Source of the DNA: Desulfuromonas sp. AOP6
GTDB taxonomy: Bacteria; Desulfobacterota; Desulfuromonadia; Desulfuromonadales; SZUA-540
Reading direction: 5' to 3'
Assembly (NCBI RefSeq): GCF_009731355.2
Contig: NZ_AP022810.1
Span: forward strand, 1,330,001 to 1,394,000
DNA: 64,000 nucleotides
Part shown: piece by piece, positions 26,537-56,682 of the stretch
How positions within the stretch are numbered: position 1 is the first letter of the stretch
Layout of the letters: each line of letters begins with the position of its first letter
Program-made: the position numbers and the translations under genes
Notes under the pieces: generated by a model
Database searches by the model: none
Told to the model about the DNA's origin: nothing
What the model saw: the letters and a program-made list of their open reading frames with translations, nothing else

Positions 26537-26553
26537 TGTCGAGAATTTTTACA
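26537..26553 (+). promoter_or_regulatory. Putative enhancer (activator) site, copy 1
   Basis: A 17-bp imperfect dyad TGTCGAGAATTTTTACA (26537-26553). It matches 16 of 17 bases of the site at 29868-29884 read in the direction of transcription, and its distance to the -24 box is identical (49 bp). Confidence 0.65.
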
Positions 26554-26602
26554 GTCCTTCAAGTAATCTGGCAAAACGGAGATATCCCAAAGGATTGATC
26601 CA

Positions 26603-26618
26603 TGGTATGTATCTTGCT
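26603..26618 (+). promoter_or_regulatory. Sigma-54 promoter of the GAF/HD-type gene
   Basis: TGGTATG, four bases, TTGCT (26603-26618): GG and GC are exactly ten bases apart as required for the -24/-12 promoter. The expected transcript start near 26630 leaves a leader of about 43 bases before ATG 26673. Confidence 0.75.
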
Positions 26619-26672
26619 CTATATCGCTCAAAGGTGTTTCCGTCCTTTCCATGACAGGAAGGAATACTCTCG

Positions 26673-28988
26673 ATGCGAACCCTGCCCGATGACATGCCCC
26701 ACGGATTTGGCCTAGCCAGAGAGGATTTCTCCTGCGTGGACGATAAGCTTCTGTGTGACAGAAAACTGTCGATTCTCAAAGAAATTTCCAGCGCCATCCT
26801 GGTTACGGACAACATCAATACCATCGGCCATCTCATCCTGGACCTGGTCATGGACCATCTGCAGGCCGAGAAGAGCTCGCTGATGATGGCCAACAGTCAT
26901 CAGGAGCTCTACATCCTCTGTTCCCGAGGGATCGACGAAACCCTCGCCCACGAATATCGGGTCAAATTCGGCGAAGGAATAGCCGGGTTCGTCGCCCAAC
27001 AGGGAGAGCCGGTTCTGGTTGCCGACATTGGGGCAGATGAAAGGTTTTCCGGGATTCCGCGAGACCGTTATCGAACCCGGTCCTTTATCTCCTGTCCCAT
27101 TATGGGCAAGGGTGGCATACTCGGGGTTCTCAACGTCAACGATAAAAGGGATGGCACCCCCTTTGACGAGACCGAATTTGCGCTGGTCAGGATACTGGCC
27201 GGCCATGCCTCAATCGCCCTGAAAAACGCTTTTCTTGTCAATCAGTACAAAAGCAAGGCCGTTGAGCTCGAAGATGTCAACCGCAAGCTTATCAACGCCG
27301 ATGTCTCCCGTACCGAATTTCTCACCCGCATGTCCCACGAACTGCGCACCCCGCTGAACTCGATCACAGGAGCGGTCTATCTACTGAAAAGCGCTCCGCA
27401 CCTCGAAGCTGCCCAAAGAAGCGAATTCTATGAGATCATTCACAGCGAAACATCCAAGCTGATCTCTTTTGTCGAAAAACAACTTGATTTTCTCCGCCTG
27501 CAGGATGAAAGTCGGGTGCTTAAAAAATCGGTCATCAGCCTGCAGGATATTATTCGGGAAACTTTCAACTCCCGCACGCTGCAGGCAGTCTTCGGCAGAC
27601 GCAGCCTGAAATTCGATCTGGTACTGGATCAGAATATCCCCGAGATTGTCGGCGACAAAATTCTCGTCAGCCAGATGTTCATCAATCTGTTTGAAGGGAT
27701 CGTTTCCCATCTCCATATGGGCAGCACAATTCGCATCGCGGTCCATGAAAACGATGTCGTGCAACTCGTCATCCAGACCACCAATCCTCTTCCCGATTAC
27801 ATTGTCCGCAACTTTTTTCACGCCAAGAATTTTTATTTCGCCGAGAAAGCCGAAGAGTACACCAAGCTGTATCTTGCCTTGAAAGCAGCGGAGATTCATG
27901 GCTGGAGTATGAAGGGGAATAATGTCGACGGTTTCTTCGAGATGATTCTTGAGATCCCACGAGGATCGTCCCAGAAGGCGTCAGCGACCATTGCCAACAG
28001 CCTCGACCTCGTCCTTGAGTTTGCCGCCGAACTGCTGGGCGTCAATACCGGTTCCTTAATGCTCAACGACGCCTTGACTGGTGATCTGATTATCTCCAGC
28101 GCCCTCGGGCTGGATGATGAGATCATCAAAAAGACACGGATCAAACTGGGCGAGCAGATTGCGGGTTGGGTGGCCAGTGAAGGGGAGCCTTTACTGATCG
28201 GAGACATCGAGTCGGACCCGCGCTTCAAAAGGAAGAATATCGATAATCAGTACAGCTCCAAATCCCTTCTCTCCGTCCCCCTGAAGATGGATGATCAGAT
28301 TCTGGGTGTTCTTAATTTAAGTAACAAAAAATCAGGCCACAGTTTTGAACTGTCCGATCTGAAAGTCGCTTCCCTCATGGCTGCCCGCATATCCCGCCTG
28401 ATAGCCCGGCTTCATGCCGAAAACGCCACGGAAGAAGACCAGTTGCGTATCCTTGGTTCTTTGGACACCCTGCTTCAGGCTGAACGCCATTACGACAAAA
28501 AAGGCAGTCGACTGCCTCGACTGGTCCAGAGGCTGATGGAGAAGCTTGTGGCCAGCGAGGAGGAATGCGCCCTGGCTCTTTACGTCGCCCGGATCTTTGA
28601 CCTGGGGCTGGCCCTGATCGACAAGGACGTCCTCGACAAGACAGTTCCCCTCTCTCCCCTGGAAAAAACCACAGTCAAGGGACATCCCTATACGGCTGTC
28701 AACCTGATCGAAGAGCTCGAGCCGGATCCGGCAATCCGTCAGATTATCCTTCATCATCACGAATATTTTGACGGTTCCGGCTATCCGGACCAGTTGGAAG
28801 GGCGGAATATCCCCTTGTTGTCGCGAGTGCTCGCCGTTGCCGATTCGTTCTGCGCATTGACGGAAAATCGGGCTTATCGCAAGGCTGTGTCGGAGGCCGA
28901 AGCTTTGGATGAGATCAGAAGGCAATCCGGTACCCGTTATGATCCAAGGATAGTCGAAGCTCTCGAAGCCCTGGTCGGCTCATCCTGA
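26673..28988 (+). CDS. Multidomain signalling protein: GAF, histidine-kinase-like, GAF, degenerate HD-GYP
   Basis: A 771-residue cytoplasmic protein with no membrane segment. Order: GAF 1 (about 30-190), a dimerisation/phosphoacceptor segment MSHELRTPLNSI (H222), a region where an ATPase domain should be (about 290-430) but in which I cannot see the usual N and G boxes, GAF 2 (about 440-590), and an HD-GYP-like end (about 600-765). The latter keeps HHEYFDGSGYP and the AVADSFCALTENRAYR helix, but the leading HDIGK is replaced by FDLGL, so cyclic-di-GMP hydrolysis is doubtful. It may work as a sensory scaffold. It is preceded by a sigma-54 promoter and faces the PEP-CTERM gene across a shared terminator. 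Confidence 0.8.
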   Translation: MRTLPDDMPHGFGLAREDFSCVDDKLLCDRKLSILKEISSAILVTDNINTIGHLILDLVMDHLQAEKSSLMMANSHQELYILCSRGIDETLAHEYRVKFGEGIAGFVAQQGEPVLVADIGADERFSGIPRDRYRTRSFISCPIMGKGGILGVLNVNDKRDGTPFDETEFALVRILAGHASIALKNAFLVNQYKSKAVELEDVNRKLINADVSRTEFLTRMSHELRTPLNSITGAVYLLKSAPHLEAAQRSEFYEIIHSETSKLISFVEKQLDFLRLQDESRVLKKSVISLQDIIRETFNSRTLQAVFGRRSLKFDLVLDQNIPEIVGDKILVSQMFINLFEGIVSHLHMGSTIRIAVHENDVVQLVIQTTNPLPDYIVRNFFHAKNFYFAEKAEEYTKLYLALKAAEIHGWSMKGNNVDGFFEMILEIPRGSSQKASATIANSLDLVLEFAAELLGVNTGSLMLNDALTGDLIISSALGLDDEIIKKTRIKLGEQIAGWVASEGEPLLIGDIESDPRFKRKNIDNQYSSKSLLSVPLKMDDQILGVLNLSNKKSGHSFELSDLKVASLMAARISRLIARLHAENATEEDQLRILGSLDTLLQAERHYDKKGSRLPRLVQRLMEKLVASEEECALALYVARIFDLGLALIDKDVLDKTVPLSPLEKTTVKGHPYTAVNLIEELEPDPAIRQIILHHHEYFDGSGYPDQLEGRNIPLLSRVLAVADSFCALTENRAYRKAVSEAEALDEIRRQSGTRYDPRIVEALEALVGSS

Positions 28989-28999
28989 GTTATGTTTTC

Positions 29000-29043
29000 A
29001 GCAGAAAAAAGGCAGTGCCAGGATGCACTGCCTTTTTTCTGCT
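29000..29043. terminator. Bidirectional terminator between convergent genes
   Basis: A perfect 19-bp inverted repeat (29000-29018 with 29025-29043), 6-nt loop, with A6 and T6 tracts within the arms. It ends the GAF/HD-type gene (stop 28988) and the minus-strand PEP-CTERM gene (stop 29060). Confidence 0.9.
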
Positions 29044-29059
29044 GTCTGACCCTTTCCGG

Positions 29060-29740
29060 TTAGCGTCTTACCCGGCGATAGAGGCCCAGCCCCACCAGGC
29101 CTGCACCCAGAAGAAGCAGAGTGCCCGGCTCGGGGACGGGAGCCGGCGCGACATCCGTCATGCCGACGATCATATCGTTGTAGTCGGCATCGCCATTGTT
29201 CCACATATCTTCCATGGCCGCGTAGAGGGTGGCTCCAAATAGGTCTCCCGCCCCAGGGGCGGTGTCAAAAATGAGAAAGTGGTCGCGGCCGTCTTCATTG
29301 AGCAGTGACTGGGAATAGTAAGTGATGTTGTTGGCAGTGAGGAAAAGACCAAAGGTTCCGTCGATAGAAGCCGTTTCATTGGAAGTCGTGTTTGTAACCG
29401 TTCCCGCCCCCAGGTCGAAAGCCAGCGTGGTAGCCGTTGTGGGGCTGTCAGAACCGGTAAAAACAATCAGTTTGTCCAGAACACTGATTATTCCTTCGGT
29501 GTTCACCTGATACTCATAGATGCCAAATATATTGCTTGAAGCCCAGCCGGCATCTTCTATGCGCAAAAAGGCCGTTGAGCTATCCGCTGTGCCGTCCGTA
29601 TCGGTCAGGACAACGGTTTCCGCTCCCGTATCGTAGTAGTCGATCCCGTTGGCGGTCAGGACCTGATTGCTGAAACTCAGAGCCAGGGCGCCAGCGGGGA
29701 AAAGAAGGACGAGCAACAGAGTGAGCAGTTGTTTTTTCAT
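29060..29740 (-). CDS. PEP-CTERM sorting-domain surface protein (DUF4114-like)
   Basis: A 226-residue exported protein. Residues 1-20 are a signal peptide (MKKQLLTLLLVLLFPAGALA). The C-terminus is a full exosortase sorting signal: VPEPGT (from about 202), a hydrophobic segment and the basic tail YRRVRR. Exosortases are held to cleave or process such tails during export. The body is rich in Asp, Thr and Gly and includes DADYNDMIVG, which resembles DUF4114 domains. It is the only PEP-CTERM protein I see in the window. It has an AGGAGG ribosome site and its own sigma-54 promoter with an upstream dyad. The likely processing enzyme is encoded at 55173. Confidence 0.92.
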   Translation of the reverse strand: MKKQLLTLLLVLLFPAGALALSFSNQVLTANGIDYYDTGAETVVLTDTDGTADSSTAFLRIEDAGWASSNIFGIYEYQVNTEGIISVLDKLIVFTGSDSPTTATTLAFDLGAGTVTNTTSNETASIDGTFGLFLTANNITYYSQSLLNEDGRDHFLIFDTAPGAGDLFGATLYAAMEDMWNNGDADYNDMIVGMTDVAPAPVPEPGTLLLLGAGLVGLGLYRRVRR

Positions 29741-29802
29741 TTATTCCTCCTGAGGGCTTGGGGGCTACTCTACGCCAAATATTTTTAGATGTTTTAGACC
29801 AA

Positions 29803-29818
29803 AGCAAATTGCTTGCCA
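29803..29818 (-). promoter_or_regulatory. Sigma-54 promoter of the PEP-CTERM gene
   Basis: Read on the minus strand: TGGCAAG, four bases, TTGCT (29818 down to 29803). It differs from the consensus TGGCACG-N4-TTGCW at one position. The expected transcript start is near 29791, about 50 bases before the ATG at 29740. Confidence 0.85.
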
Positions 29819-29867
29819 ATGGGTAAGTGTCCGAAACTATAAGGATAAAAGGCTGGATTTTACTGGG

Positions 29868-29884
29868 TGTAAAGATTCTCGACA
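29868..29884 (-). promoter_or_regulatory. Putative enhancer (activator) site, copy 2
   Basis: On the minus strand the 17 bases read TGTCGAGAATCTTTACA, one mismatch from the site at 26537-26553, in the same orientation relative to transcription. The gap to the first base of the -24 box is 49 bp in both cases. Confidence 0.65.
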
Positions 29885-30009: not shown

Positions 30010-31029
30010 ATGGCTCTCTACCAATATGTGGTTGGCCCCGATCTCCGCATCCTTTCCAGCCGGATCCTGCAGGGCACAGAATCTGCGGATCGGGTACGTC
30101 CAGGTGCTGGCCTATTTTATTATCATCACATTCCTCGACTCCTTGTGGATGGCGATGATGCGGTATCCCGGGTTCTTGCTACCGGTGAAAGTCTTACCCT
30201 CCAGGCCTTTCCTTTCAGTTGCCCCCATACAACGCTGCCGATGGATGCTCAACTCGACCCTCTCCTGGATGCCGAAGGAGGGGTCGCCGGCGTGACCATA
30301 TCCCTTCACCTGCACCATGAATGTCCGTATTTTCATCAGAGCGTTGAATGTCAGCATCTGATCGATCTGGGTAAAACAGCCTCGACCCTATCTCATGGCG
30401 TGCGCAACCCTCTCAACGCCATCAAGGGAGCGGTAGTCTATCTCAAAGACAAATACGGAAATGAAAAGAACCTGGTCGAATTTACCGAAATCATGGAAGA
30501 AGAGATTCTGCGCCTTGAGAAGTTTATCAGCGGTTTTCTCAGCACCACCTTCGATGACCTGGAGAAACGCCAGGTTGAGCTCAATCGGATCCTGAAAAAG
30601 ATCGAAACCTACACCTCGCTACAAATCATGTCTCTCCCCGTGTCGCTTTCCTTCCGCTACGGAAACGTCGGATCCCTGCGGCTGAATCCTTTTCAGGTCG
30701 AGCACGCGATTCTCAATGTCATCAATAACGCGATCTCTATTCTTAAAAATGGTGGCCATGTCTCCGTGGAGACTCGACTTGAAAGCAAAAATGGGGAAAA
30801 TTTTGCCGTGGTAGAGGTTGTTGATGATGGCCCCGGCATGCCCGATGACATTATCAGCTCCCTTTCTCAGCCCCAGATATGCACTGCCAGTAAGTCAGGC
30901 AAGGGCTTTGGCCTGTTTCTGACACGCGAAGCGATGGAGTGTCACGGCGGCTTTCTTCATATCGAGCGACTTACTCCAAGAGGCACCTCCGTTAAAATGG
31001 GTTTTCCCAGTGAAACCGGAGACTGCTAA
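30010..31029 (+). CDS. NtrB-like sensor histidine kinase
   Basis: A soluble 339-residue histidine kinase with no membrane segment. The N-terminal ~110 residues resemble a PAS-like sensory domain only loosely. The phosphoacceptor box is STLSHGVRNPLNAI (H129), as in NtrB-type kinases; the ATP-binding boxes are NVINNAI, VDDGPGM and SGKGFGLFLTREAM. It probably phosphorylates the activator encoded immediately downstream (one-base gap). Its position corresponds to PrsK in PEP-CTERM loci, but it lacks the long membrane region and GAF domain of PrsK, so it is a different type of kinase in that slot. The ribosome site before ATG 30010 is weak. Confidence 0.88.
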   Translation: MALYQYVVGPDLRILSSRILQGTESADRVRPGAGLFYYHHIPRLLVDGDDAVSRVLATGESLTLQAFPFSCPHTTLPMDAQLDPLLDAEGGVAGVTISLHLHHECPYFHQSVECQHLIDLGKTASTLSHGVRNPLNAIKGAVVYLKDKYGNEKNLVEFTEIMEEEILRLEKFISGFLSTTFDDLEKRQVELNRILKKIETYTSLQIMSLPVSLSFRYGNVGSLRLNPFQVEHAILNVINNAISILKNGGHVSVETRLESKNGENFAVVEVVDDGPGMPDDIISSLSQPQICTASKSGKGFGLFLTREAMECHGGFLHIERLTPRGTSVKMGFPSETGDC

Positions 31030-31030
31030 G

Positions 31031-32386
31031 ATGACCAATGAGGTTAGTGGACATATTTTGGTGGTCGACGACGAGGCTAATGCCCGCAGGGTCCTTTCCG
31101 CCATTCTTGGTGAGGCCGGATATGGGGTGGTGGAGGCGGAAAGCGCCCGCGACGCGCGCAAGGTTTTGGGCTCCCAGGACGTGGATGTGGTCATCAGCGA
31201 TGTCAGAATGCCCGAGGAAGATGGCATAGAACTCCAAGACCATATTGCCGAACACTACCCGGATATTCCTGTCATCTTTCTCACGGCCTACGGCGACGTC
31301 GAGTCCGCTGTCAGTGCCATGACCAAAGGGGCCTTCTATTATTTCGTAAAACCCCCCAATTATGCTGATCTCAAGGGTATCCTGTCCCGTGCCGTGGATC
31401 AGCGCCAACTCAAGCGCGAACTCCAGCTGCTGCGCGAAAAACTTGGTGAAGAAAACCGGAAATACCGGATTATCGGGCGGCACCCCGAAATCCGGCGGAT
31501 TTTCGAAACCATCGAATCGATCAAGGATTCGGAAAGCAGTGTTCTGATCACCGGCGAAACCGGGACAGGCAAGGAACTGGTGGCCCGAGCCCTTCATTTT
31601 GAAGGGATTAGGGGGGCAAAACCTTTTGTCGCCGTTAACTGTGCGGCCATTCCCAAGGATCTGATCGAATCCGAACTTTTCGGTCATGAAAAAGGCGCCT
31701 TTACCGGGGCGGCCACTCGACGCATCGGTCGCGTTGAACAGGCTTCCGGGGGAACTCTGTTCCTTGATGAAATCGGCGAACTCGATCTGTCCATACAGGC
31801 CAAACTTCTGCGCGTCCTGCAGGAAAAGGAAGTGGACATGCTCGGCAGCAATAAGAGAGTTTCCGTCGATTTCCGCTTGATCTCCTCCACCAACCGCAAC
31901 CTCGAAGCGGAAGTCAAAAAAGGACAGTTTCGTGAAGATCTTTTCTACCGCATCAATGTTGTTCAACTGAGAGTCCCTTCCCTTCGTCAGCGAAGGTCGG
32001 ACATCCCTCTTCTGGCTGCCGAATTCGTCAAAGAGTTCTGTCGACGGGAGAACAAGTTGCTCACTCTTTCCGCCCGTGTTCTCGAAGTGTTCCAGGATTA
32101 CAGCTGGCCAGGAAATATCCGCCAACTTCGTAATGTCCTGGAGCGTGCTGTCGTGCTGGCACGGGGGCGGGAAATTTCTGTGCGTGAATTGCCGGATGAT
32201 CTTTTTGCCCTTCACCCTTCTGCCGAAAAAGGCGAACCCGGCAAAACGATCAAAGAGATGGAGGCCCAGGCTATTGTCGAGGCTCTCGACGCCTGTGGTG
32301 GCAACAAATCAAAGGCCTCTAAAATGTTGGGCCTTTCCCGTAAAGCCCTGTATAAACGCCTTCACGATTACCGGATTCTCGGCTGA
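31031..32386 (+). CDS. NtrC-family sigma-54-dependent response regulator
   Basis: A 451-residue transcriptional activator: receiver (1-120, phosphoacceptor D57 in VVISDVRMPEEDG, K in FVKPP), AAA+ domain (about 140-370) with Walker A GETGTGKE, the sigma-54-contacting GAFTGA at 222-227, GGTLFLDEIGEL, and a C-terminal Fis-type helix-turn-helix (GNKSKASKMLGLSRKALYKRL). It should bind enhancer sites and open sigma-54 promoters. Three such promoters lie within 5 kb, making it the obvious candidate regulator of the PEP-CTERM gene and the exopolysaccharide operon, as PrsR is elsewhere. ATG 31031 is chosen; a GTG at 31010 lies inside the kinase gene. Confidence 0.93.
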   Translation: MTNEVSGHILVVDDEANARRVLSAILGEAGYGVVEAESARDARKVLGSQDVDVVISDVRMPEEDGIELQDHIAEHYPDIPVIFLTAYGDVESAVSAMTKGAFYYFVKPPNYADLKGILSRAVDQRQLKRELQLLREKLGEENRKYRIIGRHPEIRRIFETIESIKDSESSVLITGETGTGKELVARALHFEGIRGAKPFVAVNCAAIPKDLIESELFGHEKGAFTGAATRRIGRVEQASGGTLFLDEIGELDLSIQAKLLRVLQEKEVDMLGSNKRVSVDFRLISSTNRNLEAEVKKGQFREDLFYRINVVQLRVPSLRQRRSDIPLLAAEFVKEFCRRENKLLTLSARVLEVFQDYSWPGNIRQLRNVLERAVVLARGREISVRELPDDLFALHPSAEKGEPGKTIKEMEAQAIVEALDACGGNKSKASKMLGLSRKALYKRLHDYRILG

Positions 32387-32476: not shown

Positions 32477-32493
32477 TGTATCCTTTCGAAACA
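32477..32493. promoter_or_regulatory. Putative activator site, distal
   Basis: TGTATCCTTTCGAAACA: outer TGT...ACA with the same 11-bp interior length as the sites at 26537 and 29868, and inner TC/GA symmetry. It agrees with the proximal dyad at 13 of 17 positions. Confidence 0.45.
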
Positions 32494-32527
32494 CATGAGT
32501 AACGTAAAAACAGCAAGTTAGGCGAGT

Positions 32528-32544
32528 TGTTTCGATTCGACACA
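32528..32544. promoter_or_regulatory. Putative activator site, proximal
   Basis: TGTTTCGATTCGACACA: seven of eight base pairs of a perfect dyad around the central T. It shares TGT-N5-ATTC-N3-ACA with the sites at 26537 (reverse strand) and 29868. It lies 93 bp upstream of the -24 box at 32638. Confidence 0.5.
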
Positions 32545-32637
32545 GGGAGCGGAGACTCTTTGTCCCCTCAGGGCGCACTCGGCGCCTCTATGTCTACTTG
32601 TCGATAAAAACATACGTTAAAACAAAGGCTTATGTGG

Positions 32638-32653
32638 CGGCATGGTGTTTGCT
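32638..32653 (+). promoter_or_regulatory. Sigma-54 promoter of the exopolysaccharide/exosortase operon
   Basis: CGGCATG, four bases, TTGCT, with GG and GC ten bases apart. Two differences from the -24 consensus. No other promoter or terminator is evident for the following 31 kb of co-directional genes. Confidence 0.7.
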
Positions 32654-32728
32654 GTAAATCTAAGCGGGCGGCTCTGCCACCTGTTTTCGGATGATGGATA
32701 CACCTCGGACAGGGATGGAACCTTGCTG

Positions 32729-33103
32729 ATGGGGGCTTCTGTGGACGGAAAAAAAATCATGATTGTTGATGAAGAGGGCTTTGGGCGGGTTTGTTGCGCT
32801 CTGCTCGAAATGTATGGCTATTCAACAGATTATCTTCCCCAGTGCCAGGACTTCAAGCATCGCTGCAATCCGGATCAACACGGCCTGGTCATCCTGAGTT
32901 ACCCCTACGGGTCCGAAATCCTGTCGGAGCTGCCGAACTACCAGCGGCTCAAGACCATCATTCTCTCCGACTATATCAGTTCAGATCTGCTGGCTCGCAT
33001 CAAGGGCCTCCAACAGGTTATCTGCCTCACCAAGCCCCTCGATTTCGGTAATTTCAGGGATACCATATCTCGTATGTTGCCCTGTCAGGGCTCTGGCAGC
33101 TAG
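32729..33103 (+). CDS. Receiver-like protein lacking the phosphoacceptor
   Basis: A 124-residue stand-alone receiver fold. The acidic start is present (KKIMIVDEEGFGR) and the conserved lysine is in CLTKPLDF, but where the phosphorylated aspartate should be (LVILD) the sequence is GLVILSYPYG, with serine. It is therefore probably not phosphorylated and may act by protein contact. I choose ATG 32729: the upstream in-frame ATG at 32642 falls inside the sigma-54 promoter and would not be in the transcript. It is the first gene of the operon, nine bases before prsT. Confidence 0.7.
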   Translation: MGASVDGKKIMIVDEEGFGRVCCALLEMYGYSTDYLPQCQDFKHRCNPDQHGLVILSYPYGSEILSELPNYQRLKTIILSDYISSDLLARIKGLQQVICLTKPLDFGNFRDTISRMLPCQGSGS

Positions 33104-33112
33104 GAGGGTGAT

Positions 33113-35761
33113 TTGAAGAAAGCGTTGACAGGCCTGCTCGTGATGTGCTGCCTGCTGGTGGCATGTAACAGACAGACCAAAGAAAGTCTTTACCAGGAAG
33201 GCCTCAGCCTGAGTGCTCAGGGGAACTACCGTGGCGCCGTCGTTCTATTCAAAAACGCCCTGGAGAAGGACCCCAATTATTTTGAGGCCCGATTCCAGTT
33301 GGGCAACGCTTACCTTGAAACAGGCAAATACGAGAGAGCTTTCAACGAGTTTGAAAAAGTGCGTCTTCAGAACCCGTCATTTCCCGGCCTGCAACACAAA
33401 TTGGCCCAATGGCATGTTCGCACCAAAAATCCCGATGAAGCCCTCCGCCTGATGGCGGTTTATCTTCAGGGTAATGAGGCGGATACCGAAACCCTGGAGA
33501 TCATTGGACAGGCCCGTTACCAGAAGAAGGAATGGGATGCGGCTGAAAAAGCGCTGCGTGAAGCGGTTGCCCTGGACGATAAAAACATCAGCGCCAAATT
33601 GCTCTTGGCTCAGGTTCTCATCAGGCAGCAGAAAGACGATAAGGCGCGTGACCTCCTTTCCCTGCTGGTCGAGCGGAAAGTTCACGTTCGCGCCGCCTAT
33701 TACATGCTGGCCGATCTGGAAGCTGCCCTGGGAAATTCCGCGCGTAGCCGTGAAATCTATCAGGACTGGAGCCTCATTGACCCTGAAGATGCAGACGCTC
33801 TGTTCAAAATAGGGCTTTATGATCTGGATGCCGGGCGTTTCACCCTGGGCGAAGAAGTGGCCGCCCGCCTGATCGAAGTTTTTCCTGCCAACGAAAAGGG
33901 GCTGTTGCTTAAAGGGATGGCTAGCTATCTACAGGGCCAGAGCGAACAGGCCTCCCGCGAATTGCAACTGTCCATCAAAAAGGGCAGTGACCCTCTCGCC
34001 TATTATTTTCTCGGACTTGCTTTCCTTCAACTGGAACAGTACGAGCTGGCTCTGAATCAATTCCACAAAGTTCTGGATTTTAACCCTGATTCGGTACAGG
34101 CCCGTTGCATGGTAGCGATGACCCTGCTGAAGCAGAAGCGCCTGGAAGATGCCATCAGCCAGGTTCAGATCGCGCTGGCCAAATATCCGGAAAATGGGTT
34201 GGCCTGGAACATTCTGGGCAGTGCCCATATGGCCCTGGGGCAGTACGACAAGGCCATGGCTGAATTCAACCGGGCCATCACGCTGGACCCGAAGCTGGCC
34301 GATGTTCACCTGAAAAAAGGGTTGTTCAACCTTTCCCGGGGCGAGATGGCGCAGGCTGAAGAGGAAATGGTCAAGGCCGTCCGTATCGCCCCCGACGTCC
34401 TTGATACTCGTCTGATTCTTGCCAATCATTACATCCGGCAGCAGAACTATCAGAAAGCCTTGGAGGTTCTGGACGAAGGTGTGAAGGGGGCTCCGCAGGA
34501 CGCCCTGATTTACAATTACCAGGCCGGGGTGCTGCTGGCCCAGAAAAAGATTCCCGACGCGATCAGCAGGCTCAAGGCCGCCAAAGAGGCTTCTCCCCTG
34601 TATTTCACCCCGTACTTCAATCTGGCGAATCTCTATCTCTCACAGGAAAAGTACGATGAGGCTTTGGCCGAACTGAGCGCTGTTCTCTCGCTGGAACCAA
34701 AACAGGTTAACGCTCATTTGGCCAGCGGCATGATCAGGGAGCTGCAAGGGAATGAGGTGGCCGCACTCGAGTCTTACCGCCGGGCCAAAGACACGGGAAC
34801 GGTCGAAGGTGCTGTCGGACTCGCGAATTACCACCTTAAAAAAGGAGCTCAGTCGGAGGCATTGGCCGTCCTTGATCAGGCTCAGGAAGAGTTTGCCGAT
34901 CATTCAGGACTTCTTGAGCTCAAAAGCCGTCTCCTGCTTAAGTCAGGTCGCGTGGATGAAGCAAGGGAACTGTTGTCGCGGATCGAAGAACTGGCCCCGG
35001 GCCGAGGATATCCCATTCTGGTCCAGGTTTTGATGCATTATGGAAAAACGGAAGATGCAATCCGGCTCGCCGAAAAAGTGATTTATGCCCAGCCCCAATC
35101 CGCCTACGGGTATCTGCTTCTGGCCAGTGTCCACGAACACGGTCTTCACTCGGAAAAGGCTTTGCAGACTTTGCAGCGCATTCCTGGGGAGGCCGCCTCC
35201 TCTCCCCAAGTACAGGTCAGGATCGCTCAGATCTTTGAAAAGAAGCAAGACTATGACCAAGCCATGAAGACCTACCAGGGCATTCTCGATAAAACGCCCC
35301 ATTTTTTTCCGGCCCGTTTTGCTCTAGGCGCTCTGGCGGATCGGCAGGGAAACAAAGGGGCGGCCCTCGACCATTACCGGCAGGTTCTGCGTGAAGAGCC
35401 GGGCTATACGCCGGCCCTGAATAATCTTGCTTATCTTTATGCTGACAATTACGCCGACAAGGCTGAAGCTCTTGAATTGGCGCTCAAGGCGTTTCGTAAT
35501 GCTCCGGAAGATCCTGGCATTCTCGATACGCTCGGTTACGTCCTCATCAAAAACAGCCGTTTCGAGGAAGCGATCCTGCATTTGGAAAAAGCCGCCGCCT
35601 TGTTACCTGAGAATCCGACAGTCTGCTATCACCTGGGGTTGGCCTACAGCGCCGCCGGCAAAACCGGGCAAGCGGTGGCAATACTCAGAAAAGCTAAAGA
35701 ATTGGGCTCCTTCCCCGAAGCGGACAAGACGGATGAATTGCTGAAACGACTTGCAGGTTGA
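33113..35761 (+). CDS. prsT: PEP-CTERM system TPR-repeat lipoprotein PrsT
   Basis: An 882-residue lipoprotein made almost entirely of tetratricopeptide repeats. Its N-terminus has a signal peptide with lipobox LLVAC, the lipidated cysteine at residue 18. At least twenty TPR-like helical pairs follow (for example GNYRGAVVLFKNALEKDPN and GQYDKAMAEFNRAITLDP). It matches the large TPR lipoprotein of XrtA/EpsH loci, which is thought to organise export or assembly at the periplasmic face. The start is TTG 33113 with a strong TAGGAGGG site. Confidence 0.92.
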   Translation: MKKALTGLLVMCCLLVACNRQTKESLYQEGLSLSAQGNYRGAVVLFKNALEKDPNYFEARFQLGNAYLETGKYERAFNEFEKVRLQNPSFPGLQHKLAQWHVRTKNPDEALRLMAVYLQGNEADTETLEIIGQARYQKKEWDAAEKALREAVALDDKNISAKLLLAQVLIRQQKDDKARDLLSLLVERKVHVRAAYYMLADLEAALGNSARSREIYQDWSLIDPEDADALFKIGLYDLDAGRFTLGEEVAARLIEVFPANEKGLLLKGMASYLQGQSEQASRELQLSIKKGSDPLAYYFLGLAFLQLEQYELALNQFHKVLDFNPDSVQARCMVAMTLLKQKRLEDAISQVQIALAKYPENGLAWNILGSAHMALGQYDKAMAEFNRAITLDPKLADVHLKKGLFNLSRGEMAQAEEEMVKAVRIAPDVLDTRLILANHYIRQQNYQKALEVLDEGVKGAPQDALIYNYQAGVLLAQKKIPDAISRLKAAKEASPLYFTPYFNLANLYLSQEKYDEALAELSAVLSLEPKQVNAHLASGMIRELQGNEVAALESYRRAKDTGTVEGAVGLANYHLKKGAQSEALAVLDQAQEEFADHSGLLELKSRLLLKSGRVDEARELLSRIEELAPGRGYPILVQVLMHYGKTEDAIRLAEKVIYAQPQSAYGYLLLASVHEHGLHSEKALQTLQRIPGEAASSPQVQVRIAQIFEKKQDYDQAMKTYQGILDKTPHFFPARFALGALADRQGNKGAALDHYRQVLREEPGYTPALNNLAYLYADNYADKAEALELALKAFRNAPEDPGILDTLGYVLIKNSRFEEAILHLEKAAALLPENPTVCYHLGLAYSAAGKTGQAVAILRKAKELGSFPEADKTDELLKRLAG

Positions 35762-55172: not shown

Positions 55173-56030
55173 TTGAAGCAAGGGCCGCAGTGGAAAATCT
55201 TCATTTTATTGTTTGCCTGGACCCTGGTCTTCTGGCCCGTGCTGCCCCCTATGGTCGAAGCCTGGCTCAGCCACTCGGATAATTCCCATGCCCTTCTGGT
55301 TCCCTTCATCTCCCTTTATTTCGCCTGGGGCATGAGGGAGGAATTGACCAGGATACCTCTCACTCCTTCAGTGACCGGTGGTGTTGTCCTGCTGATCAGC
55401 CTGCTGCTCTACCTGGTCAGTCTGGTCGGGGGGATCGTTGTCACCGCCCGCATCATGCTGGTTGCCTCCCTGATCGGGCTCATCTGGTGCTGTCTTGGCG
55501 GCGCCATGGTCAGGCGTCTGGCCTTTCCTCTCGGGTTTCTCTTTTTCATGATTCCTGTTCCAGTCACTTTGCTGGGAATGATCTCTTTTCCCTTGCAGAT
55601 GATCGCGACCAAGATCTCAGCCGGCGTCATCTCTTTCTGCTCCATCCCCGTCTACCGGGAGGGCAACATGCTCTATTTTGTGAATACGCAGCTTGAAGTG
55701 GCCGAAGCCTGCAGCGGCATTCGCTCGATCATGTCGATGGTCATGCTCAGTGTCATCTTTGCTTATATGGCAACTCCCGGTTGGTGGCGAAAGTTCGCGT
55801 TGGTTCTTTCCGCAATTCCCATTGCCATGCTGGCCAACATTGTGCGGGTCAGTGGAACCGGTGTCCTGGCCCATTTCTGGGGGGATCAGGTGGCGCGGGG
55901 ATTCATGCACGATTTTTCCGGGATGGCGGTGTTCGCCTTTGGTCTGATCGTTCTATTCATTGAATTTTCACTGATTAATCGGATCAAGGCGGCTGCCCCC
56001 GCGGAGCGATCCGACAACAAGGCGAGATAG
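55173..56030 (+). CDS. xrtA: Exosortase (XrtA/EpsH type)
   Basis: An inner-membrane transpeptidase-like enzyme that processes PEP-CTERM tails. It has 285 residues and about eight hydrophobic segments. The proposed catalytic triad is present: C180 in VAEACSGIRS, R225 in NIVRVSGTG and H246 in FMHDFSGM. Together with the flanking EpsI, PrsT and export genes this is the XrtA subtype. The start is TTG 55173, with GGGAGGAA before it. Its expected substrate in the window is the protein at 29060, encoded 25 kb away. Confidence 0.95.
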   Translation: MKQGPQWKIFILLFAWTLVFWPVLPPMVEAWLSHSDNSHALLVPFISLYFAWGMREELTRIPLTPSVTGGVVLLISLLLYLVSLVGGIVVTARIMLVASLIGLIWCCLGGAMVRRLAFPLGFLFFMIPVPVTLLGMISFPLQMIATKISAGVISFCSIPVYREGNMLYFVNTQLEVAEACSGIRSIMSMVMLSVIFAYMATPGWWRKFALVLSAIPIAMLANIVRVSGTGVLAHFWGDQVARGFMHDFSGMAVFAFGLIVLFIEFSLINRIKAAAPAERSDNKAR

Positions 56031-56031
56031 A

Positions 56032-56682
56032 ATGATAAACAATAAGGCCTTCTTTTTTGCTCTGTTTCTCTTGCTGCTTACCCTTGGCCTCACTATATGG
56101 CAGGGGCAGCGCGGCAAGCCGGCCGTATTGCAGACCCGTCTGGAGACTTTGCCCAAAGACCTGGCCGGGTATCTGGGGAGAGATAACCGCTTTCCCGACT
56201 CGGTCTATCGTGAGTTGAATGCTGACCTGCATGTCTACCGGCACTATCTGGGTACGAACGGCCAGGTCGACCTGTATATCGGTTATTACGGCACCGCCAA
56301 AGGGGGACGCACCGGGCACAACCCCTATGCCTGTCTGCCTGGTGCCGGTTGGGCGATTGTCGAGAGTAGTGCCATCCAGGTGCCGACGAGTTATCGGCCC
56401 GAGGGCGTCACCCTGAATTACGTCGTGGCCCACAAGGATGGAGTGAACAATGTCCTGCTGCACTGGTACCAGTCCGACGGAACCAAAGTCCTGGCCAACG
56501 GGTTTCAGCAGAACATCCAGCGTTTTGTCGGGCGCATTCTGCACAATCGCAACGATGGCGCCTACGTGCAGGTATCGGCCTTCACCACAGGCGATGAGGT
56601 GGCCTCAACTCGGCTGAAGCTGGAAAATTTTGCCCGAGAAGTTCTCAACCTCCTGCCGGAGTACTGGCCGGTAGAAGGGTAG
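56032..56682 (+). CDS. epsI: EpsI family exosortase-associated protein
   Basis: A 216-residue protein with a single N-terminal membrane anchor (about 6-24) and a periplasmic domain carrying the family signature GHNPYACLPGAGW. EpsI accompanies exosortases, either fused to them or as the next gene, and is required for exopolysaccharide production in characterised loci; its biochemical activity is unknown. Here it is separate, starting one base after the exosortase stop. Confidence 0.94.
   Translation: MINNKAFFFALFLLLLTLGLTIWQGQRGKPAVLQTRLETLPKDLAGYLGRDNRFPDSVYRELNADLHVYRHYLGTNGQVDLYIGYYGTAKGGRTGHNPYACLPGAGWAIVESSAIQVPTSYRPEGVTLNYVVAHKDGVNNVLLHWYQSDGTKVLANGFQQNIQRFVGRILHNRNDGAYVQVSAFTTGDEVASTRLKLENFAREVLNLLPEYWPVEG

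Follow-up and report, generated by a model that had tools for sequence, protein, structure and literature searches.

Predicted PrsR enhancers of a PEP-CTERM gene and a conserved GAF/HD signalling gene, and a second dyad array, in an exopolysaccharide island of Desulfuromonas sp. AOP6

Two 17-mers and their promoters

The stretch of DNA analysed here (the window; 64,000 nucleotides of the Desulfuromonas sp. AOP6 genome, contig NZ_AP022810.1) contains two genes that are preceded by nearly identical 17-mers and by sigma-54 promoters of the -24/-12 type. The first gene, on the plus strand (26673-28988), encodes a GAF-HisKA-(degenerate ATPase)-GAF-HD-GYP-like protein of 771 aa, assigned by Pfam and ortholog alignment and referred to below as the GAF/HD protein. 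Its 17-mer, TGTCGAGAATTTTTACA (26537-26553, plus strand), is conserved upstream of the orthologs and is followed after 49 bp by the promoter TGGTATGTATCTTGCT (26603-26618, plus strand). The second gene, on the minus strand (29060-29740), encodes a PEP-CTERM protein identified by PEP-CTERM signal search and Pfam (DUF4114; 226 aa; VPEPGTLLLLGAGLVGLGLYRRVRR). Its 17-mer, TGTCGAGAATCTTTACA (29884-29868, minus strand), also stands 49 bp ahead of its promoter, TGGCAAGCAATTTGCT (29818-29803, minus strand). The genome contains an RpoN gene.

Both sites had been pointed out in a sequence-only reading of the window, whose coordinates and sequences proved exact: the 17-mers are identical at 16/17 positions and have the same orientation and equal distance to the promoter. 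The two spacers, which that reading had called dissimilar, agree at 13/49 positions, compared with a mean of 12.6 in shuffles, and are therefore unrelated. The description of the site as a dyad held in part: in the consensus of 78 PEP-CTERM promoters from relatives, TGT mirrors ACA, whereas neither CG at positions 4-5 nor TT has a symmetric counterpart, so that the 17-mer has a direction.

The genome-wide tests were pattern searches. Across the 3.27 Mb genome, the two-part pattern TGT-N8-YTTACA-N38..68-TGG-N8-TTGC has exactly two matches, and the control has none. In contrast, the pattern TGT-N3-GAA-N5-ACA, which the sequence-only reading had suggested for such a search, gave 17 genome matches against 10 in the control and is not specific, unlike TGT-N8-YTTACA combined with -24/-12. 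The probability that the 16/17 match and equal spacing arose by chance is negligible: 17-mers of the loose form do occur at random, but with up to three mismatches just these two places were found in the window, where 0.20 would be expected, and conservation of the element in orthologs and across the class already refutes chance.

The site itself is known, so its presentation as unreported did not stand. As described by Haft et al (2006; PMC1569441), motif 1 is a 17-nt sequence ending in TTTACA that lies upstream of 99/167 proteobacterial PEP-CTERM genes and is at times repeated; after a spacer with a mean of 62.8 and a range of 32-92, motif 2 follows, likewise 17 nt long and consistent with sigma-54. 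These authors proposed that the response regulator PrsR binds motif 1. Judged by its sequence, the window element combines motifs 1 and 2 of that study and is a predicted PrsR enhancer. Both sites have the 17-nt motif ending in TTTACA and a GG/GC (-24/-12) promoter 49 nt downstream, within the range of 32-92. The window also shares with the published element a PEP-CTERM gene, with the motif intergenic and upstream of it (29740 gene), and a genome with PrsK, PrsR, PrsT, and exosortase A (XrtA; 55173-56030, plus strand, followed by EpsI at 56032-56682). The best scores for PrsK (TIGR02916, cut-off 300), PrsR (TIGR02915, equivalog cut-off 502.6), and PrsT (TIGR02917) were 493.8, 662, and 550.7 bits, all above the cut-offs. 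The differences lie in the spacer, which is 49 here against the mean of 62.8 and falls into two classes here (~50 and ~61), and in one target, the 26673 gene, which is a conserved signalling gene and not a PEP-CTERM gene.

Motif 1 in other genes and genomes

Each of the three PEP-CTERM genes in the genome has motif 1. The second is preceded by two copies (C1:2586926 and 2587024), the latter 60 bp ahead of CGGCACTTTTTTTGC. At the third, motif 1 reads TGTCGAAAAATCTTACA; the stretch at the normal distance from it is promoter-like but decayed, and a clean -24/-12 lies farther downstream, ~180 bp from motif 1 as read by eye. The same two-part pattern was searched class-wide in 195 relatives, with the backward pattern as control. 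The element was found in 83 relatives, and the control gave few matches in total. Downstream DNA was read for 110 elements: 78 of them stand ahead of an open reading frame (ORF) that ends in a PEP-CTERM signal, and several of the others are cut by contig ends. The consensus over the 78 PEP-CTERM promoters is TGTCG-R-W4-N-TTTACA; at positions 4 and 5, unconstrained in the pattern, C and G each reach 96%. Azonexus, Rhodocyclaceae, and Rhodoferax (Betaproteobacteria) carry motif 1 63-64 bp before the -24/-12 promoters of PEP-CTERM genes, in the form TGTCG-N6-YTTACA and, in Azonexus, TGTCA-N6-TTTACA. These searches support the claim of the sequence-only reading that the 17-mers are real sites, a selected sigma-54 enhancer, and bear out its prediction that matches elsewhere would lie ahead of other PEP-CTERM genes.

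The spacers between motif 1 and promoter (n = 150) are ~40 times 46-52 bp and 100 times 59-65 bp long, with 7 in between. A helical-period test gave no sharp signal, and our claim is therefore limited to two spacer classes ~12 bp apart. The 49-bp spacer of the window sites falls in the 46-52 bp class, roughly a helical turn below the other. Haft et al summarize their spacers by a mean and a standard deviation, and no division into two classes was found in their text.

Several variations of motif 1 and its surroundings were seen in some relatives. At L083, L085, L091, and L092, motif 1 is preceded within a few bp by another, inverted motif-1-like copy (CGACA-N5/6-TGTCG). A full motif 1 with -24/-12 stands ahead of small proteins, PilZ-like by eye, at L049, L237, and L238, and in genome G161 (L278) the element precedes the gene of a Crp-type regulator near prsR.

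Full-length orthologs of the GAF/HD gene are present in 14 other relatives, and partial ones in three more. Motif 1 was found upstream of all 15 full-length genes, counting that of the window: at the 11 fixed positions, it is perfect in nine upstream regions (inverted in one of them), off by one base in four, and off by two in the remaining two. In dinucleotide shuffles, at most one mismatch was reached in 0.7% of upstreams and at most two in 12%, so that the two weakest sites rest mainly on their position. In the ortholog of genome G001, a weak motif 1 precedes the promoter TGGTATGTATTTTGC at the identical gap of 49 bp. In family f6 (L090-L092; three genomes), the orthologs have a promoter-like TGGCA(T/C)GA(G/T)AATTGA upstream, in which GA replaces GC at -12.

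The HisKA phospho-acceptor histidine (H222) is invariant in the 15-ortholog alignment. In the ATPase region of the 26673 gene, Pfam gave no HATPase_c, and the N and G boxes were absent by eye. All 15 orthologs have (Y/F)DLGL in place of HDIGK, with HHE and GYP retained. The protein has neither the HDxGK of an active HD-GYP phosphodiesterase nor the HATPase N/G boxes of an active histidine kinase, and it may act as a signalling adaptor rather than as an ordinary kinase or phosphodiesterase. A contig-wide scan with its sequence returned distant HD-GYP and GAF proteins only, and no named ortholog. The gene appears to be a conserved PrsR target outside the PEP-CTERM family; as far as the open-access literature goes, we found no earlier account of this, and priority is uncertain.

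PrsR and NtrC31 as candidate activators

The sequence-only reading had named the NtrC-type response regulator encoded beside the two target genes as the natural candidate to bind both 17-mers (NtrC31; 31010-32386, plus strand). Its gene follows that of a soluble histidine kinase recognized by Pfam (HK30; 30010-31029, plus strand). HK30 reaches 48.8 bits against TIGR02916 and is not PrsK. NtrC31 scores 377 bits against TIGR02915 and ranks 11th in the genome, and its identification as PrsR was rejected on these scores. The genome's best match is the canonical PrsR at C1:1405284-1406633 (contig G000:C1), which PrsK directly precedes. This pair falls outside the window, ~9-13 kb past its last position (near 73166-76654 in window numbering), where the same exopolysaccharide (EPS) island has its far end.

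The distribution of the two regulators bears on which of them would bind motif 1. PrsR is present in 67/83 genomes with the element (Fisher 3e-13). NtrC31 has no ortholog in 69 of the 83, among which 55 carry PrsR. In its favour, NtrC31 is a sigma-54 activator situated between the genes of the island, and it co-occurs with the GAF/HD gene (NtrC31 in 18/18 GAF/HD genomes, the GAF/HD gene in 18/19 NtrC31 genomes). In family f15, however, NtrC31 lies on another contig or tens of kb off, beside a dyad array of its own, whereas the GAF/HD gene is found next to PrsR with motif 1 retained. Absence of NtrC31 from family f15 had also been considered and was rejected, since the gene sits elsewhere in those genomes. 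The recognition helices differ (SRPTxYDLxKKH in PrsR, SRKALYKRL in NtrC31), and the array downstream of NtrC31 consists of a different, conserved dyad. Binding of both 17-mers by NtrC31 is accordingly very improbable.

A related possibility is that PrsR and NtrC31 both act on motif 1 or compete there. A precedent comes from Desulfovibrio. In the available text of Rajeev (2011; PMC3333781), the five predicted PEP-CTERM targets of the D. vulgaris PrsR-type regulator DVUA0057 were enriched in vitro by DNA-affinity-purified-chip (DAP-chip), and a later reconstruction assigns DVUA0057 a motif in common with DVU0110 (Kazakov 2015; PMC4641369, as far as its available text goes). The DVUA0057 regulon resembles the present case in its PrsR-type regulator, predicted PEP-CTERM targets, and sigma-54 promoters; it belongs to another organism, and the likeness is drawn without its site sequence. 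An HD-GYP gene is listed among the figure abbreviations of that work. In the window, however, the NtrC31 array contains nothing resembling motif 1, and the two activators have unlike recognition helices; we give shared or competitive binding as little credit as binding by NtrC31.

With high confidence, we instead favour the reading that both 17-mers are PrsR enhancers through which the PEP-CTERM and GAF/HD genes would be co-activated, with HK30/NtrC31 as a separate circuit. A phosphorylated PrsR oligomer on each 17-mer would, by looping across the 49-bp spacer, activate sigma-54 RNA polymerase, and the PEP-CTERM surface protein and the GAF-HisKA-GAF-HD-GYP-like protein would be co-expressed with the other members of the PrsR regulon. 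PrsR binding, phosphorylation, and activation in this organism are what we infer; the basis is site identity, conservation, co-occurrence, and gene family assignments, together with the in vitro enrichment of five predicted PEP-CTERM targets by DVUA0057 in D. vulgaris.

Several observations weigh against assigning the sites to PrsR in this way. Sixteen of the 83 element genomes have no PrsR match; several of these are drafts or have single chance-like matches inside genes. Ahead of the third PEP-CTERM gene, no clean promoter stands at the normal distance. GAF/HD orthologs of family f15 have long spacers (119-138 bp), and those of family f6 have TTGA at -12. Finally, the Desulfovibrio motif is, in the available text of the reconstruction, not assignable to DVUA0057 alone (PMC4641369).

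PEP-CTERM proteins and their polysaccharide form flocs and biofilms in environmental bacteria. In the open-access literature, what is known of their regulation comes from one bioinformatic paper, from a single promoter study, and from DAP-chip and regulon analyses in D. vulgaris. The window sites would provide exact targets for tests of PrsR.

A second dyad array downstream of NtrC31

Between the NtrC31 gene and an operon for REC, PrsT, and EPS functions, a pattern search revealed an array of dyads of the form TGTNTC-N5-GANACA. Site A (TGTATCCTTTCGAAACA) lies at 32477-32493, site B (TGTTTCGATTCGACACA) 51 bp after it at 32528-32544, and site C (TGTCCCCTCAGGGCGCA), which is degenerate here, 33 bp after B at 32561-32577. 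Sixty bp past site C follows the -24/-12 promoter of the operon, CGGCATGGTGTTTGCT (32638-32653, plus strand). The exact second-type dyad occurs at only two places in the genome, both in the array, and gave no control matches. In seven genomes compared side by side, the promoter is always present, and the spacing is 49-52 bp from A to B and 33-34 bp from B to C, except in G013, where just two sites were found. Of the 19 genomes with an NtrC31 ortholog, 16 have the dyads downstream of its gene, and of the three exceptions two are truncated or limited by the contig.

The operon begins with a stand-alone receiver-like protein (REC; 32642-33103, plus strand), followed by PrsT, a TPR lipoprotein (33113-35761, plus strand). 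The promoter overlaps the first ATG of the listed REC ORF, and the true start is therefore probably at 32729. All six REC orthologs that were read have Ser at the phospho-Asp position.

Position and conservation most naturally suggest control of the PrsT/EPS operon by HK30/NtrC31 and of the motif 1 genes by PrsK/PrsR. The island thus appears to hold two sigma-54 circuits: HK30/NtrC31 would act on its own array and promoter (32477-32653) and drive the REC/PrsT/EPS operon. A two-tier sigma-54 cascade is also possible, though we consider it rather doubtful. In such a cascade, PrsR would activate the PEP-CTERM proteins and the degenerate adaptor, and the adaptor would tune HK30/NtrC31, which would then drive the PrsT/EPS operon through the three-site enhancer; the adaptor and HK30/NtrC31 are present in the same genomes. 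If it held, synthesis of surface protein and polysaccharide would be coupled. Together, the second array and a conserved target outside the PEP-CTERM family suggest joint control of a single export island by two sigma-54 systems.

The PEP-CTERM gene pepA of Aquincola tertiaricarbonis has a mapped -24/-12 promoter with shown RpoN1 dependence and a predicted enhancer upstream (PMC9850573), and it resembles the window gene in promoter type and predicted enhancer. By contrast, prsT is not RpoN-dependent in Aquincola (PMC9850573), whereas the REC/PrsT operon here has a conserved sigma-54 promoter and another enhancer array. As far as the open-access literature reaches, we found neither the second enhancer array nor the two spacer classes described; subscription papers and figures lie outside this coverage, and priority is uncertain. 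In genome G025, the stretch between the NtrC31 gene and its dyad array contains a 14-bp sequence (CACGTTTGTCCACC-like) that is repeated in tandem, nearly perfectly, about two dozen times (L153:14300-14620).

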